DNA of 64,000 bases from Thermoplasmata archaeon (lineage in GTDB: Archaea; Thermoplasmatota; Thermoplasmata; Thermoplasmatales; Thermoplasmataceae). This document shows positions 5,206-21,910 of the stretch, piece after piece. Location: contig JAJZZX010000001.1 in assembly GCA_021797355.1 (NCBI GenBank), forward strand, positions 388,523 to 452,522. The letters are read 5' to 3'. The translations under genes were made by a program, and so were the position numbers. Every line of letters starts with the position of its first letter. Positions within the stretch are counted from its first letter, which is position 1. The notes below the pieces were generated by a model. That model saw only the letters and a list, made by a program, of their open reading frames with translations, had not been told where the DNA came from and made no database searches.

Positions 5206-6219
5206 ATGTCAATTTTCAGGGGAGTGGTTGGGAGAAGCCTGGTGCGTTCAATGAAAGGTCTCTCAGGATCGAAATTGCCTATGATTGCTGGGCATAAGCT
5301 CCTTTACACTTGCAACCTGAGATGTAAAATGTGTCCTTTCTGGAGAAGGCCGGATGAGGAACTCCTGTCCATTGAGGAAGAAGTGAAAATGATGAATGCT
5401 CTTGCAGGTGCAGGTGTGTCATTCATGGGTTTCGAGGGTGGCGAACCGCTTCTGAGGAAAGACATAGCTGAAATTTTAGAGGAATCAAGCAAAAGATTCC
5501 ACACCTCCATGGTTACAAACGGATGGCTTCTTGCTGGTAAGGTAAGGGAAATAGAAGACTACCTGAATTTTGCCTTTGTATCACTGGACGGAGTGGGCGA
5601 ACTTCATGACAGGCTCCGTGGGATTAGCGGATCATTTCAGAAGGCCATAGAAGGCATTCGATCAGCACGCGGAAGGATACCCATGGCAATCAGCTCAACC
5701 ATCACCAGGGAAAACATGCAGCAGGCCCCTGACTTGGTGAATTTGGCCTCAGATCTGGGAGTCAGCATAAATTTCCAGATAGCATATGATTATTCAACCG
5801 CAGATCCACTTTCCCCGGATCGGGCAAAGCTCAAAGAAACTATTGAATTCCTGAAATATCAGAAGCTGGCAGGCAGGCCAATTGTAAACTCAGTTGAGTA
5901 CTTCGATGCAATCCTTAACTCCTGGTACGGTGGCGAGGGCTGGCACTGCAAGCCATGGCTAACGATAAATATAGACCCGCTGGGCAGGATAGTTCAGCCA
6001 TGCTATATAATCAACGAATATAGCGGTAAATCAAAAGTATGGGAAATCGACATTAGGGAACTCTGGAATTCATATGACTGGGAAAGTTATGAAACTTGCA
6101 ACAAATGTGCCCTTTCCTGCTACCTGGAACCATCGCTATTCTCATGGCACAATCCGTCAATGGTGAGGGAGAGAATCCTGGACAACGTAGTATCATACAT
6201 AACCGGGCAGATTGGGTGA
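5206..6219 (+). CDS. Radical SAM protein with SPASM-like C-terminus
   Basis: Residues 36-43 carry the CxxxCxxC cluster motif (CNLRCKMC) that binds the SAM-cleaving 4Fe-4S cluster, followed by the GGEP motif near residue 85 that contacts the SAM amino group. The C-terminal third has further cysteines (HCKPWLTI, QPCYI, CNKCALSCY) laid out like the auxiliary-cluster region of SPASM or HpnH-like enzymes. At 337 residues the length fits this class. No peptide substrate gene or partner lies beside it, so the reaction is unknown. The upstream TATA element is weak. The gene is followed convergently by an HTH regulator at 6243-6614. Confidence 0.8.
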   Translation: MSIFRGVVGRSLVRSMKGLSGSKLPMIAGHKLLYTCNLRCKMCPFWRRPDEELLSIEEEVKMMNALAGAGVSFMGFEGGEPLLRKDIAEILEESSKRFHTSMVTNGWLLAGKVREIEDYLNFAFVSLDGVGELHDRLRGISGSFQKAIEGIRSARGRIPMAISSTITRENMQQAPDLVNLASDLGVSINFQIAYDYSTADPLSPDRAKLKETIEFLKYQKLAGRPIVNSVEYFDAILNSWYGGEGWHCKPWLTINIDPLGRIVQPCYIINEYSGKSKVWEIDIRELWNSYDWESYETCNKCALSCYLEPSLFSWHNPSMVRERILDNVVSYITGQIG

Positions 6220-6242: not shown

Positions 6243-6614
6243 TCATTCCAGAATCCCTGCTTGTTCCGATATGATTGCGGCATTCTCAACAATAATCTTT
6301 CCGCTGCTGGTAATCTCATAGGCAACCGCAGGGGGAGTTGAGGGTATAACTGTTCTCATCACAAGACCAAGGGAAGCTAGTGCACGGAGTGCTCTGGAAA
6401 GACTCTTCGTATCCCTTATTCCTAAGGATTTCCTGATCTCATTATACCTCATTGCCCTCCCAGGTGAAAGGCGGTTCATTATTTCCAAAGAGAGGGGCAT
6501 TGATAGGCATTTGAAAACTTTCCTCGCCATATCCGGGTTGCCAACTTTATCTTTCTGTATTAGGTCTAAAAGAGGCATATCTGTCACCTTAGGGCAAGGT
6601 TGATTCCTTCCCAT
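6243..6614 (-). CDS. Winged-helix transcriptional regulator, HxlR-like
   Basis: The 123-residue protein is mostly a winged helix: a helix with SLEIMNRLSPGRAMRYNEI, a recognition helix with DTKSLSRALRALASLGLV, and a wing ending in YEITSSGK. This matches the HxlR/ArsR-like one-domain regulators. The ATG at 6614 is only 25 bases from the ATG of the divergent HtrA-like gene, and a minus-strand TATA-like element (about 6636-6650) lies at the start of that gene. A later start at the Met at 6578 is possible. Control of the neighbouring protease gene is a reasonable inference. Confidence 0.7.
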   Translation of the reverse strand: MGRNQPCPKVTDMPLLDLIQKDKVGNPDMARKVFKCLSMPLSLEIMNRLSPGRAMRYNEIRKSLGIRDTKSLSRALRALASLGLVMRTVIPSTPPAVAYEITSSGKIIVENAAIISEQAGILE

Positions 6615-6639
6615 ATATTAAGACTGGGTGCATCTGTAT

Positions 6640-7578
6640 ATGATAAAAATGGCAGTAACGCTATTTAATGGAAGTATAGCTGAAACAGCCTCCACACTTA
6701 CGGGACAGACAGTGGCAGTTAAATCTTATTACGAGGATACGGAAACTGAAGGGTTTCCTGTACCTCGCATGGCTGCTGGCACTGGAATTATAATCAGCGG
6801 CAGCGGATATGTTGTCACCAATGCCCATGTTGTGGCTGGAAGCAGCCAGATTCGGATTACGACACCAGATAACAAAACGCACCTGGCAAGAGTGGTTGGT
6901 TACGACACTGCAACTGACTTGGCACTTATAAGGATTATGACAAAGGGTCTGAGCCTATCTGCCGTTGATTTTGGAGACTCGACTGCCATGCGGCCAGGAG
7001 ATCCTGTCATAGCAGTTGGCAACGCACTAGGCCTGCCCGGCGGCCCAACGGTTTCCCTGGGTGTAGTCAGTGCCGTACAGCGCCAGATTCCAATGTCTGA
7101 ATTCATCTTTGAGGGTCTAATACAGACAGACGCCGCAATAAATCCCGGAAACAGCGGAGGGCCCCTAGCTACTCTGGATGGTAAGGTGATAGGGATGAAC
7201 ACCGCAATGATACCAATGGCGCAGGGCATGGGATTTGCGATACCCTCAAACACAATCCGTGAGCTTGTTGCGAAGATAATGGAAGATGGCAAGATAATCA
7301 GGCCATGGATAGGCATAACTGGTTCTGACGCGCACATAGGCGTGGATCAAGGGGCAGTTCTTGTTGCATCAGTGGCATACGGGAGCCCGGCCCATCAAGC
7401 TGGCGTGAGGCGTGGAGATTTTATACTGAAGTTTAACGGAAAAGACACGCCTGACATGAGAACGCTCACTAGGCTCATTAATGATAATGGAATTGGTAAA
7501 GCAGCAGAGATGAACATAAGACGCGGTGAAAGAAAGGGCGTGCTACAGATAATACCAGGCGAAAGTCCAGGCCTTTAA
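6640..7578 (+). CDS. HtrA/DegP-like serine protease with one PDZ domain
   Basis: A trypsin-fold protease domain is followed by one PDZ domain (about residues 220-305). Counting from the ATG at 6640, the triad is intact: His63 in NAHVV, Asp93 in TDLAL and Ser172 in GNSGGP. HtrA proteins degrade or refold damaged proteins. No signal peptide or membrane anchor is visible, so it probably acts in the cytoplasm, unlike bacterial DegP. Possible starts are GTG 6628, ATG 6640 and ATG 6649. I prefer 6640 because a TATA-like ATATATTA lies at about 6612-6620. It diverges from the HxlR-like gene. Confidence 0.85.
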   Translation: MIKMAVTLFNGSIAETASTLTGQTVAVKSYYEDTETEGFPVPRMAAGTGIIISGSGYVVTNAHVVAGSSQIRITTPDNKTHLARVVGYDTATDLALIRIMTKGLSLSAVDFGDSTAMRPGDPVIAVGNALGLPGGPTVSLGVVSAVQRQIPMSEFIFEGLIQTDAAINPGNSGGPLATLDGKVIGMNTAMIPMAQGMGFAIPSNTIRELVAKIMEDGKIIRPWIGITGSDAHIGVDQGAVLVASVAYGSPAHQAGVRRGDFILKFNGKDTPDMRTLTRLINDNGIGKAAEMNIRRGERKGVLQIIPGESPGL

Positions 7579-7935: not shown

Positions 7936-8877
7936 GTGAAGTTTCTGGACGGTTATCTGGCAGAAAATCAGCACAACACCTGGTCTTCACTTCGGAATCC
8001 GGTTATAACAGTCTCTCCTGAAGAATTGATAAGGGTAAGGATTCCGGATTCCTCCACACTGCAGATCACCAGGAGATCACATGCTGAAGACCTTGCACAT
8101 GTTGACCGTTCCAAACTTGACGCTGCTGTTGGTCCAATATTTGTTGAGGGCGCCAGCCCGGGAGACGTACTGGAGGTATCGATACACAGCATTGAGGCTG
8201 AGGCGTGGGGATGGACAACTGTATCTTCGGATTTTGGTCTGCTGAAAAACAGGTTCCGTGAAAGGCTGATCCTTTGGGATATTCGCAATGGCAGTGCCAC
8301 CACTACAGGGGATTTTTTGCATGGAATCAGCATTCCTGTGTCGCCATTCCTTGGCATTGTTGGTCTTGCTCCTGAAAGGGGTGAGTTTGGAATGATCCCT
8401 CCTCAGATATTCGGCGGCAACATGGACAACCGGCTGCTTGGGCCAGGGTCAAGGGTCTATCTTCCCGTTAAGGTCGAAGGAGGGCTGCTTTCACTTGCTG
8501 ATCCACATGCTGCCCAGGGAGATGGCGAAGTTTGCGGCACGGCAATTGAAACGCCTGCTGAGGCAGTCATAAGCATCAAAGTGATCAAGGGAACTGAAAT
8601 AGGTGGACCAAGAGCCTATTCCATTGACCGTGGTCTTGGAGAGGTGATTGTTACAATGGGGATTGACCATGATCTGCACATGGCCACCGTTACGGCAGTA
8701 GAATCCATGATGGCCGAACTGGCAGAATACGGATTCACTGATGAGGAGGGTTATGTCCTCTGCAGCATTGCGGGTAGCCTGAGAATAAGCGAGGTTGTCG
8801 ATGAGCCAAATTTTGTTGTGAGTATGCTTATACCAAAGGATCTTGCCAGACAGGGAAAATTCAGGATCAGGAAATAG
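7936..8877 (+). CDS. Acetamidase/formamidase family protein
   Basis: The 313-residue protein matches the FmdA/AmdA family in length and motifs: RRSHAEDLAHVD, VGPIFVEGASPGDVLEV, GIVGLAPERGEFGMIPP, GGNMDNRLLGPGSRVYLPV and DPHAAQGDGEVCGTAIE. These enzymes hydrolyse formamide or short amides to ammonia and the acid in the cytoplasm. The GTG start at 7936 is favoured by a TATA-like element at 7906-7915. The 3' end overlaps the convergent radical SAM gene by 11 bases. It has no transporter or regulator beside it, so the physiological amide is not known. Confidence 0.9.
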   Translation: MKFLDGYLAENQHNTWSSLRNPVITVSPEELIRVRIPDSSTLQITRRSHAEDLAHVDRSKLDAAVGPIFVEGASPGDVLEVSIHSIEAEAWGWTTVSSDFGLLKNRFRERLILWDIRNGSATTTGDFLHGISIPVSPFLGIVGLAPERGEFGMIPPQIFGGNMDNRLLGPGSRVYLPVKVEGGLLSLADPHAAQGDGEVCGTAIETPAEAVISIKVIKGTEIGGPRAYSIDRGLGEVIVTMGIDHDLHMATVTAVESMMAELAEYGFTDEEGYVLCSIAGSLRISEVVDEPNFVVSMLIPKDLARQGKFRIRK

Positions 8878-10747: not shown

Positions 10748-11794
10748 ATGGCTGCATTCACAGTGCAAAAATTTATGCCGAAATCTTACTGCTTCCCACT
10801 ATTGAGCCAATGCTGGTATTGTGGCAAGGAGATAGACGGTTACGTTTTCCACATCTCGGGAAATGAGTGTGACATAGGCTGTGCCAATCAGCAGATCAAG
10901 AGGTCCAGGGATATTCTTGGCGTGATTCTTGGGGACGTCGACTCATTTGTGGGCTACGGGCTTGGTTTCGACAAGCCAGAATTCTTCTGGTACATCTTCG
11001 TAGAATCACAGGAGGCACTTCCATCGCTCCGGGAAGAATTCAGTGCAGCTCAGCTGGGATTCAGCATATATCCGCTAATCACCGAAATACCAGTCCTCGG
11101 AGAACCGGAGATGATTCCAGCCATCCCTGAGAAATTCGTCCAGGGGGGGACCTCCATAGGCCACCTCAGGGCTGGAACAACGGGCACATTAGGAGGTATT
11201 ATGCGAATAGGGGAGAAGCGATATGCTCTGGCCACAGCGTCCATAATAGCTCCAGAAGGTTCCAGGATTGGTGATTCAGTTGTCCATCCGTCCATTCCAG
11301 ACTCTCCCAAGAGAGGCATAATCATGGGGAAACTTTCAGCCATCTCAAGAATGATTCCAAACACATCCAATGATATGGATGCAGCCCTGGTAGAAATTTT
11401 CGACGACATAAAAACGTCGCCATGGATCAAGAATCTTGGGCGGCCGGGCGACCTGAGCGAACCACACATCGGCATGACAGTCAGGAAATCGGGGCGAAGC
11501 ACTGGATTTACCGAAGGAAAAATATTGTGCACAGACGTAAAAATGAAAGTGGTGATACGCAACAAGCTCTATTTTCTTCAGGATCACTTTCTGGCCATAA
11601 GTGATATGGGAAGCTTTGCGGAAACAGGGGATGAAGGCTCCTTTATACTTGACAACAGAAATTCTGTGACTGGGCTCTTAGAAATGGTATTCCACGGTAT
11701 GGCGGTATGCTCAAGGGCAAGCCTTGTCTTTGAAAGGTTTGGGCTTGTTTCACCTTACTGCTTCGAATTTGACGAAGAGGAAGCTGATGATTAA
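10748..11794 (+). CDS. Trypsin-fold protein with degenerate catalytic triad and N-terminal zinc-knuckle-like motif
   Basis: The first 50 residues hold two cysteine pairs, Cys22/Cys25 (CWYC) and Cys41/Cys45, spaced like a small zinc knuckle. From about residue 130 the protein resembles a trypsin-fold protease: a strand GTLGGIM, the site that normally carries the catalytic His reads ATASI (residues 162-166), the Asp site is kept (MDAALVEI, Asp211), and the site that normally reads GDSGS reads GDEGS (294-298), replacing the nucleophile with Glu. It is therefore probably not a peptidase but a binding or scaffold protein. The acidic tail (FDEEEADD) is another feature. The next gene encodes an ArsA-type ATPase. 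Confidence 0.65.
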   Translation: MAAFTVQKFMPKSYCFPLLSQCWYCGKEIDGYVFHISGNECDIGCANQQIKRSRDILGVILGDVDSFVGYGLGFDKPEFFWYIFVESQEALPSLREEFSAAQLGFSIYPLITEIPVLGEPEMIPAIPEKFVQGGTSIGHLRAGTTGTLGGIMRIGEKRYALATASIIAPEGSRIGDSVVHPSIPDSPKRGIIMGKLSAISRMIPNTSNDMDAALVEIFDDIKTSPWIKNLGRPGDLSEPHIGMTVRKSGRSTGFTEGKILCTDVKMKVVIRNKLYFLQDHFLAISDMGSFAETGDEGSFILDNRNSVTGLLEMVFHGMAVCSRASLVFERFGLVSPYCFEFDEEEADD

Positions 11795-11867: not shown

Positions 11868-13061
11868 ATGGCTGAGAAGAAGTCCACGCCCATAGGGAAA
11901 GGAACCAGAATAATCCTCTTCACCGGAAAAGGCGGAGTTGGGAAGACGAGCGTGGCGGCTTCAACCGCACTGCTTCTGTCTAGAAAGGGTCTGAGGACAC
12001 TGATTATATCAACAGATCCGGCTCACAGCCTTTCTGATGCCTATGGAATTGAGATTGGTCCCTACGTGAAACAGATTTCAGACAACCTCTTTGCACAGGA
12101 GATAAGTGTCATTGAAGCCATAAATGAGCACTGGGAGAATCTGAAGGGTTACCTGACAGGCTTGTTCAGTTCCCAGGGGCTTGATCCTGTATCATCCGAG
12201 GAGATCGCTACACTTCCGGGTTTTGATGAGGCTTCAGAACTTCTTTATGTTGACGATTACTTCAAGGAAGGGAAATATGATGCAATTGTTATGGACAGTG
12301 CTCCCACTGGAGAATCGCTGAAGCTCCTCTCATTCCCTGAGGCAATGTCATGGTATATGGAAAAGCTTTTCCCAATAAGCAGGACCACGGCAAAGATAGT
12401 CCGTCCAATCATGAAGCCATTCTCAAGCATCCCGCTGCCTGATGATTCCATATTCAGGAGTATGGAAAACCTTTACCAGAGCCTCAAGGAAGTGAGGGGC
12501 ATACTTACCGATGAAAGGATCACATCCATAAGGCTTGTATGCACACCGGACAGGATGTCCATGAATGAAACAAGGAGAGCGTATACATATCTTCTTCTAT
12601 ATGGGTATCCCGTGGATGCGCTTGTTGTGAACAAGATATTCGCGGAGAACACAGGTGAATTCTTCCATGGCTGGAGGAAATCCCAGGAGGAAATTCTCAA
12701 GGAAATAAGTGATTCGTTCCAGGAGCTCAAGATATTCCGATTGAATCTTTCCCGTGAGGAGCCCACCGGCTTGGAAAGACTGGCTAGGATGGGAAAGGAC
12801 CTGTATGGTGCGGATGATCCTTACAGTGTCTATCAGCACAGTATCCCGGTGAGCTACGAAAAGAAGGGAGATAAGGTTGTCGCAAAGATAAGGTTGCCAT
12901 TTGCAAGCAAAGATAGGCTCAATCTCTATAACAAAGGAGGGGAGCTTGTTATCGAACTGGACAACTGGAGAAGGGTTTTTTATTTGCCACAGACACTAGC
13001 AGACAGGAAACCATCATCGGCAGAGTTTATTAATGGCTATCTGCATATTGAGCTGATCTGA
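11868..13061 (+). CDS. ArsA/Get3-family ATPase with C-terminal Hsp20-like domain
   Basis: The 397-residue protein has the deviant Walker A motif GKGGVGKT (residues 20-27), a switch I with STDPAHSLSDAYG, and the switch II region MDSAPTGESLKLL. This is the ArsA/Get3 P-loop class. Residues about 320-397 form a beta-rich extension like the ArsA_HSP20 domain found in archaeal and plant homologues. No arsenic genes lie nearby, so a role in handling membrane or client proteins, as for Get3, is more likely than arsenite export. I do not see the CxxC of eukaryotic Get3. The start is 73 bases after the previous gene. A 68-residue gene follows one base after the stop. Confidence 0.85.
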   Translation: MAEKKSTPIGKGTRIILFTGKGGVGKTSVAASTALLLSRKGLRTLIISTDPAHSLSDAYGIEIGPYVKQISDNLFAQEISVIEAINEHWENLKGYLTGLFSSQGLDPVSSEEIATLPGFDEASELLYVDDYFKEGKYDAIVMDSAPTGESLKLLSFPEAMSWYMEKLFPISRTTAKIVRPIMKPFSSIPLPDDSIFRSMENLYQSLKEVRGILTDERITSIRLVCTPDRMSMNETRRAYTYLLLYGYPVDALVVNKIFAENTGEFFHGWRKSQEEILKEISDSFQELKIFRLNLSREEPTGLERLARMGKDLYGADDPYSVYQHSIPVSYEKKGDKVVAKIRLPFASKDRLNLYNKGGELVIELDNWRRVFYLPQTLADRKPSSAEFINGYLHIELI

Positions 13062-21016: not shown

Positions 21017-21910
21017 TCAGACCCAACTCCATACATCTGAAGTGTATTTACGAACGGCAAGCAGCTTGAAGTTGCAGCTCTTGCAATGGGATGCAGCACT
21101 GTAGAGTATGGAAAGATGGTTTTCCACCATTGCCGAAGGAAGAAACGTGAAAGATCTGTACCTGCCTTTACTGGGCTTAGCGAGAATTGCTGCCTTTGGT
21201 ATTCTCTGTTCAACAGACAATTTATTAACTTCCCTTAGGAAGGGCGAATCAAAATATCTCACTTCCTTCTTATCACCGCAATATAATATTGCCTTGAATC
21301 CTTTATTATCCTCACCGTGAAAGTTGTACTCTATGAAGCAATTTTCTTCAACATTGAGGTCTCTGAGTATATCCACCTCATATCCTACTACTGTTAGGGG
21401 AATTCTTCCGTTAACCTCGTTTAGGGCATGAATTCCGCTTGCCCCTGGGCCAAGATCAACAATCCGGATGTGGTTCTGCATGCCAATGATTTCCCCCGCT
21501 ATTTTAGTAAAAAATGAAATGCCTTCATTCGAAATCCGGTATTCAACGTAGATCTTGTCTGACTTTACATATAGGCTACCCCTCACAGCTTCTCCTATGC
21601 TGTCGATCTTTTCCATGATCCGGGCAGCAGTGTCCATCTCCTCCGCCCTCATCCTGACTACATGGCAGTCGCCTGTCCTAATTGGCCTGTACTGGTATAA
21701 GAAATCCTGAAGTTTCTGTGCTGGGCTACCGCAAATAAAGAGATCAATAAAGTGTCCTTTTTCTGTCACCTGGAAGTCCAGGGGAACGGTATCCATTTCT
21801 CTCGACAGGACAGGCAACAATTTAATGGACTGTTCTATGGATATAACTAAACGGTATGATAGTCTTCCATCAACATCCTTGTACATCACTCCGGTATCTG
21901 TGCCCATCAT
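21017..21910 (-). CDS. Protein of unknown function, paralogue of the gene at 333-1289
   Basis: The 297-residue protein has no membrane segment and no domain I can name. It aligns loosely along its length with the protein at 333-1289: beta-rich N-terminal half, a middle motif (KIYVEYRISNEGISFFTKIA) and a C-terminal part (RYRSFTFLPS). A second in-frame ATG follows the first directly. A TATA-like TTTATAAATTATT lies about 35-45 bases upstream. Nothing downstream is co-oriented, so there is no operon clue. Confidence 0.6.
   Translation of the reverse strand: MMGTDTGVMYKDVDGRLSYRLVISIEQSIKLLPVLSREMDTVPLDFQVTEKGHFIDLFICGSPAQKLQDFLYQYRPIRTGDCHVVRMRAEEMDTAARIMEKIDSIGEAVRGSLYVKSDKIYVEYRISNEGISFFTKIAGEIIGMQNHIRIVDLGPGASGIHALNEVNGRIPLTVVGYEVDILRDLNVEENCFIEYNFHGEDNKGFKAILYCGDKKEVRYFDSPFLREVNKLSVEQRIPKAAILAKPSKGRYRSFTFLPSAMVENHLSILYSAASHCKSCNFKLLAVRKYTSDVWSWV

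Follow-up and report, generated by a model that had tools for sequence, protein, structure and literature searches.

The window, a 64,000-nucleotide stretch of a Thermoplasmata archaeon genome, was found to carry a gene for a protease-like protein whose predicted fold is closest to that of the plant protease NAL1 and whose catalytic His and Ser are gone. In this and all other full-length orthologues, an invariant Glu occupies the position of the nucleophile. Because close relatives conserve this pseudoprotease, the sequence comparisons suggest that it very likely works by binding and not by cutting.

Active site and fold

The longest ORF of the pseudoprotease gene lies at 10748–11794 on the plus strand (ATG at 10748, 348 amino acids). 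In the orthologue alignment, the N-termini of the relatives start a few residues upstream of the CWYC motif, and the orthologue of genome G003 has an in-frame stop 10 codons upstream. Thus, the true start is probably the TTG at 10802, residue 19 of the listed ORF, which would give a gene at 10802–11794 and a protein of about 330 residues, the first 18 residues not being translated. The opposite strand offers no better reading, the overlapping ORFs being stop-broken or unremarkable. No signal peptide is apparent by eye, and the protein is probably cytosolic.

An alignment with 21 intact homologues placed S165 (11240–11242, plus strand) at the position of the catalytic His. The window protein reads ALATASIIAP where intact homologues have ILSNNHVLAN, and TGDEGS where they have GGDSGS, so that E296 (11633–11635, plus strand) takes the place of the catalytic Ser. 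The catalytic Asp is retained as D211 (11378–11380, plus strand) within NDMDAA. The His-Asp-Ser triad is intact in all of the 21 class-level homologues (SNNHV, SNNHI or SNSHI; GDSG) and in two phylum-level homologues. Among the 13 full-length orthologues, by contrast, the His is replaced by Ser, Gln or Arg, while the Asp and the Glu never vary; D211 and G294-D295-E296-G297 are invariant in 12 of the 12 aligned orthologues. The first-pass annotation had taken ATASI and GDEGS for the His and Ser sites of a trypsin-like protein that had lost both residues and kept the Asp. That assignment stands, and it extends to every orthologue.

Could the protein still be a hydrolase that uses another residue, such as E296 or a Ser or Thr elsewhere? 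The old active site does hold two invariant acids, D295 and E296, but no consistent base is found at the His position, and comparison of the orthologues with the intact homologues revealed no Ser, Thr or Cys of the protease domain that is both invariant and lineage-specific. S136 and T147 are common to the intact relatives too, and several orthologues have Ala in place of S298. Glu nucleophiles are not known in the chymotrypsin fold. A remaining hydrolytic activity is thus very unlikely, no alternative invariant nucleophile being apparent in the orthologue alignment.

The putative chymotrypsin-fold (double beta-barrel) domain lies at 11135–11743 on the plus strand. AlphaFold2 models were obtained for the window protein (pLDDT 61, pTM 0.63, moderate confidence) and for a 39%-identical orthologue (pLDDT 67.6, pTM 0.69). 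For both models the top Foldseek match was NAL1 (E 1.6e-9 and 1.7e-12, respectively), followed by Streptomyces griseus protease B and alpha-lytic-type proteases; the orthologue model superposes on protease B with a TM-score of 0.79, normalised to protease B. When a profile of 12 orthologues was compared with the PDB, rice NAL1 chains were the sole significant matches (E about 2e-5), the GDSGS of NAL1 being aligned with the GDEGS of the pseudoprotease. This profile was needed to find NAL1, since a single-sequence search of the PDB gave no significant match.

The Pfam matches of the window protein as a single sequence stay below the cut-off (Nal1_C, 22.7 vs 26.1 bits; Peptidase_S64, 19.0 vs 23.6 bits), with no match to NAL1_N, and NCBIfam has no family for it. 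The Nal1_C and Peptidase_S64 models are both matched by 12 of the 12 orthologues, and Trypsin by three. Of five intact class relatives, one exceeds the Pfam cut-off for Nal1_C and two for NAL1_N (PF25608). In hhalign, residues 48–332 are aligned with the intact homologues at a probability of 99.9%. A small alpha/beta domain (residues 50–112; 10895–11083, plus strand) lies at the NAL1_N position in the profile-profile alignment, where the column-by-column similarity to the intact homologues is weak. As the two models with their Foldseek matches and the profile matches agree, a chymotrypsin double beta-barrel closest to NAL1 is well supported, on models of moderate confidence, and the trypsin fold proposed at first pass is upheld.

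NAL1 (NARROW LEAF 1) is a plant trypsin-like serine protease (PDB 7y77, 8hau, 8pmg and others; Pfam NAL1_N PF25608 and Nal1_C PF25819) that keeps GDSGS and is reported active. A maize NAL1 homologue degrades REL2 (PMC12915138). In the literature searched, no paper was found on NAL1 structure or on the HtrA proteases of Thermoplasmatales. The pseudoprotease and NAL1 have in common a GR-T/S-T/S-G-x-T-x-G region, the GD-x-GS motif, and an N-terminal domain at the equivalent position. However, their identity is about 15–17%, and the pseudoprotease lacks the His and the Ser and has an extra Cys cluster. Other families of this archaeal class have intact NAL1-like peptidases, which are homologous to the pseudoprotease over residues 48–332; they keep an SNNHV-type His and GDSG and, unlike the pseudoprotease, have no N-terminal CxxC cluster.

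Distribution, descent and selection

Is the inactive form common? Among 77 genomes of one Thermoplasmata family, the pseudoprotease is carried by 14, as 13 full-length genes and one partial gene in five genera. The profile scored 17 of the 77 genomes, including three spurious matches and one contig-edge fragment; the matches in genus g12 (L070–L072) were weak and lay inside thiolase-like genes, and they were rejected as spurious. A pattern scan of 84,980 genomes, which was seeded on two conserved peptides and could miss strongly diverged members, detected 11 relatives, all of them in Thermoplasmata records. No GDEG-type member was found outside this archaeal lineage, either in the scan or among the class- and phylum-level homologues examined, and no relative was found in viral contigs.

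The phylogenetic tree was built without the two trait columns. In this tree, whose root was not independently placed, a branch with a support of 100/99 sets all the inactive proteins apart. Apparently, the triad was lost once, in the ancestor of an acidophilic Thermoplasmata lineage.

For close pairs of orthologues dN/dS is 0.007–0.05, several pairs being near-saturated synonymously so that the ratios are approximate. Both GAA and GAG codons are used across the genomes for the invariant Glu, which has been kept in the GDEG motif through synonymous saturation in five genera. It is scarcely credible that the gene is a decaying protease gene without remaining function. Its presence is patchy (14 of the 77 family genomes), but the ORFs are full-length, the purifying selection is strong, with dN/dS far below 1, and GDEG is invariant in all five genera. 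Since the Glu has persisted despite saturated synonymous sites and dN/dS is low, the sequences indicate that it is a maintained pseudoprotease and not a decaying gene. The transition makes a clean case: it maps to one branch, the same class supplies intact relatives to compare it with, and the nucleophile has given way to an invariant Glu.

The N-terminal Cys cluster

A Cys cluster, C22-x2-C25 followed by C41-x3-C45 (10811–10882, plus strand), precedes the protease-like part. C22, C25 and C45 are invariant in 12 of the 12 aligned orthologues. The fourth ligand position is C41 in genera g1 (the genus of the window) and g16, while a nearby His probably serves in g3, g7 and g5. Both AlphaFold2 models have a hairpin over the cluster and then a helix, which starts at residue 43 in the numbering of the window protein. 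No Pfam zinc finger matches the cluster above the cut-off; a weak likeness to FCS, FLZ and TRASH fingers lies far below it. The orthologue conservation and the predicted secondary structure point to a probable treble-clef zinc finger, which would bind zinc. The two N-terminal Cys pairs noted at first pass are indeed present, and the absence of the cluster from intact class-level homologues supports a lineage-specific addition.

The cluster raises the question of whether the protein is a nucleic-acid-binding or transcriptional regulator that would act via the zinc finger, the protease fold then serving for dimerisation or to bind a ligand. The finger-like motif with its sub-threshold resemblances and the HxlR regulator among the conserved neighbours fit such a role. 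However, all the finger matches fall far short of the cut-off, inspection by eye shows no marked basicity in the finger region, and the HxlR neighbour already provides a regulator. This role is judged quite unlikely.

It is also unlikely, if a little less so, that metal handling or sensing is the main function, with metal bound by the Cys cluster and perhaps by an acidic D211/E296 pocket. Several relatives apparently come from acidic mine waters, which are rich in metals. The invariant CxxC plus C45 would suit metal binding, and the nearby ArsA gene would fit metalloid handling. A precedent is MamO, a metal-binding, trypsin-like pseudoprotease of magnetotactic bacteria, which activates the protease MamE (PMC4794232). 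On the other hand, treble clefs with four ligands usually have a structural role, and the ArsA link is not conserved.

Neighbouring genes and a possible role

The ArsA/Get3-type ATPase gene (11868–13061, plus strand; TIGR00345) lies 73 bp downstream of the pseudoprotease gene in the window. This adjacency was found only in g1. No matching ArsA occurs in the pseudoprotease carriers of g16 and g3, and in g5 and g7 ArsA is on other contigs than the pseudoprotease. Thus, an ArsA/Get3 partnership as a conserved link was rejected. The first-pass annotation, sound as to the fold, the triad loss, the Asp and the Cys cluster, had given this neighbour a weight that it does not bear, and had seen neither the likeness to NAL1 nor the HtrA neighbour. 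Its proposal that the protein may be a binding protein is a reasonable one.

An HtrA-type serine protease gene (6628–7578, plus strand), with Trypsin_2 and PDZ matches, encodes a triad that is intact by sequence (TNAHV, DLALI, GNSGGP) and a PDZ domain. This HtrA has no obvious signal peptide by eye and may be cytosolic, which would be unusual for an HtrA. A gene for an HxlR-type winged-helix regulator (6243–6614, minus strand; PF01638, 38.8 bits) is divergent from it, 13 bp apart. In all eight g1 and g16 genomes that have both genes on one contig, HtrA lies 0.4–3.2 kb from the pseudoprotease, and HxlR, HtrA and the pseudoprotease persist together in both genera while other flanking genes change. 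The two genes are not linked in g3, g7 and g5, and HtrA is not detectable in some carriers (G024 and G010). Over the 77 family genomes, HtrA is present in 10 of the 14 carriers vs 28 of the 63 non-carriers (Fisher p = 0.08, not significant). Since the arrangement in g1 and g16 may have been inherited once and the co-occurrence reaches only this p value, the HtrA link is a lead and not proof. On its location and the MamO-MamE precedent, HtrA is the best candidate partner.

The explanation that I favour, at roughly an even chance, is that the NAL1-type pseudoprotease is a non-catalytic binding subunit or a regulatory or adaptor subunit, possibly tuning HtrA. In an ancestral NAL1-type protein, both the general base (His) and the nucleophile (Ser) would have disappeared, with Glu becoming fixed at the Ser position. 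The old substrate cleft, flanked by D211 and E296, may hold a peptide or a partner protein uncleaved, with the treble-clef-like zinc finger perhaps adding a second docking surface. The protein may serve protein quality control as a regulatory subunit or an adaptor, and it may act on the HtrA encoded beside it.

MamO likewise has a trypsin fold with a degenerate triad and acts non-catalytically with an intact HtrA-type protease (PMC4794232); an equivalent action of the pseudoprotease is a proposal. MamO belongs to the HtrA/Deg branch, carries a TauE domain and has its metal site in a di-His pair on the surface. In contrast, the pseudoprotease is NAL1-like and not HtrA-derived, and its proposed metal site is the added N-terminal Cys cluster. 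A bolder version, in which the proteins form an undescribed archaeal family of NAL1-type pseudoproteases that controls the neighbouring HtrA allosterically, with the zinc finger as a docking tip, as an independent, non-HtrA-derived counterpart of MamO-MamE, is doubtful, though it deserves mention. Enzyme folds turned into binding proteins are well documented in animals and magnetotactic bacteria; for archaea, a small literature search turned up hardly any. The pseudoprotease offers a good opportunity to learn how an inactive protease functions, and whether an active one is under its control.

Other genes of the neighbourhood were also compared. An acetamidase/formamidase-family gene (PF03069; 7936–8877 in the window) lies between HtrA and the pseudoprotease in four of the seven loci examined, and a histidine-phosphatase-like gene replaces it in two g16 genomes. 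Ta1207-family genes (PF19020, function not known) occur in 4–14 copies per genome, two of them in the window (about 432–1244 and 21095–21853). They are directly downstream of the pseudoprotease in g3 and g7, and in g16 they adjoin the HtrA block (coordinates elsewhere: L052 9666–10556; G024:C84:2054; G028:C27:1282; G019:C43:167931–170777). A radical SAM protein encoded at 8867–10447 matches B12-binding radical SAM families only below the cut-off and is about 80% identical across g1. A PTO1314-family radical SAM protein (5206–6219; TIGR03961, 564 bits) is encoded beside the HxlR-HtrA pair in G003.
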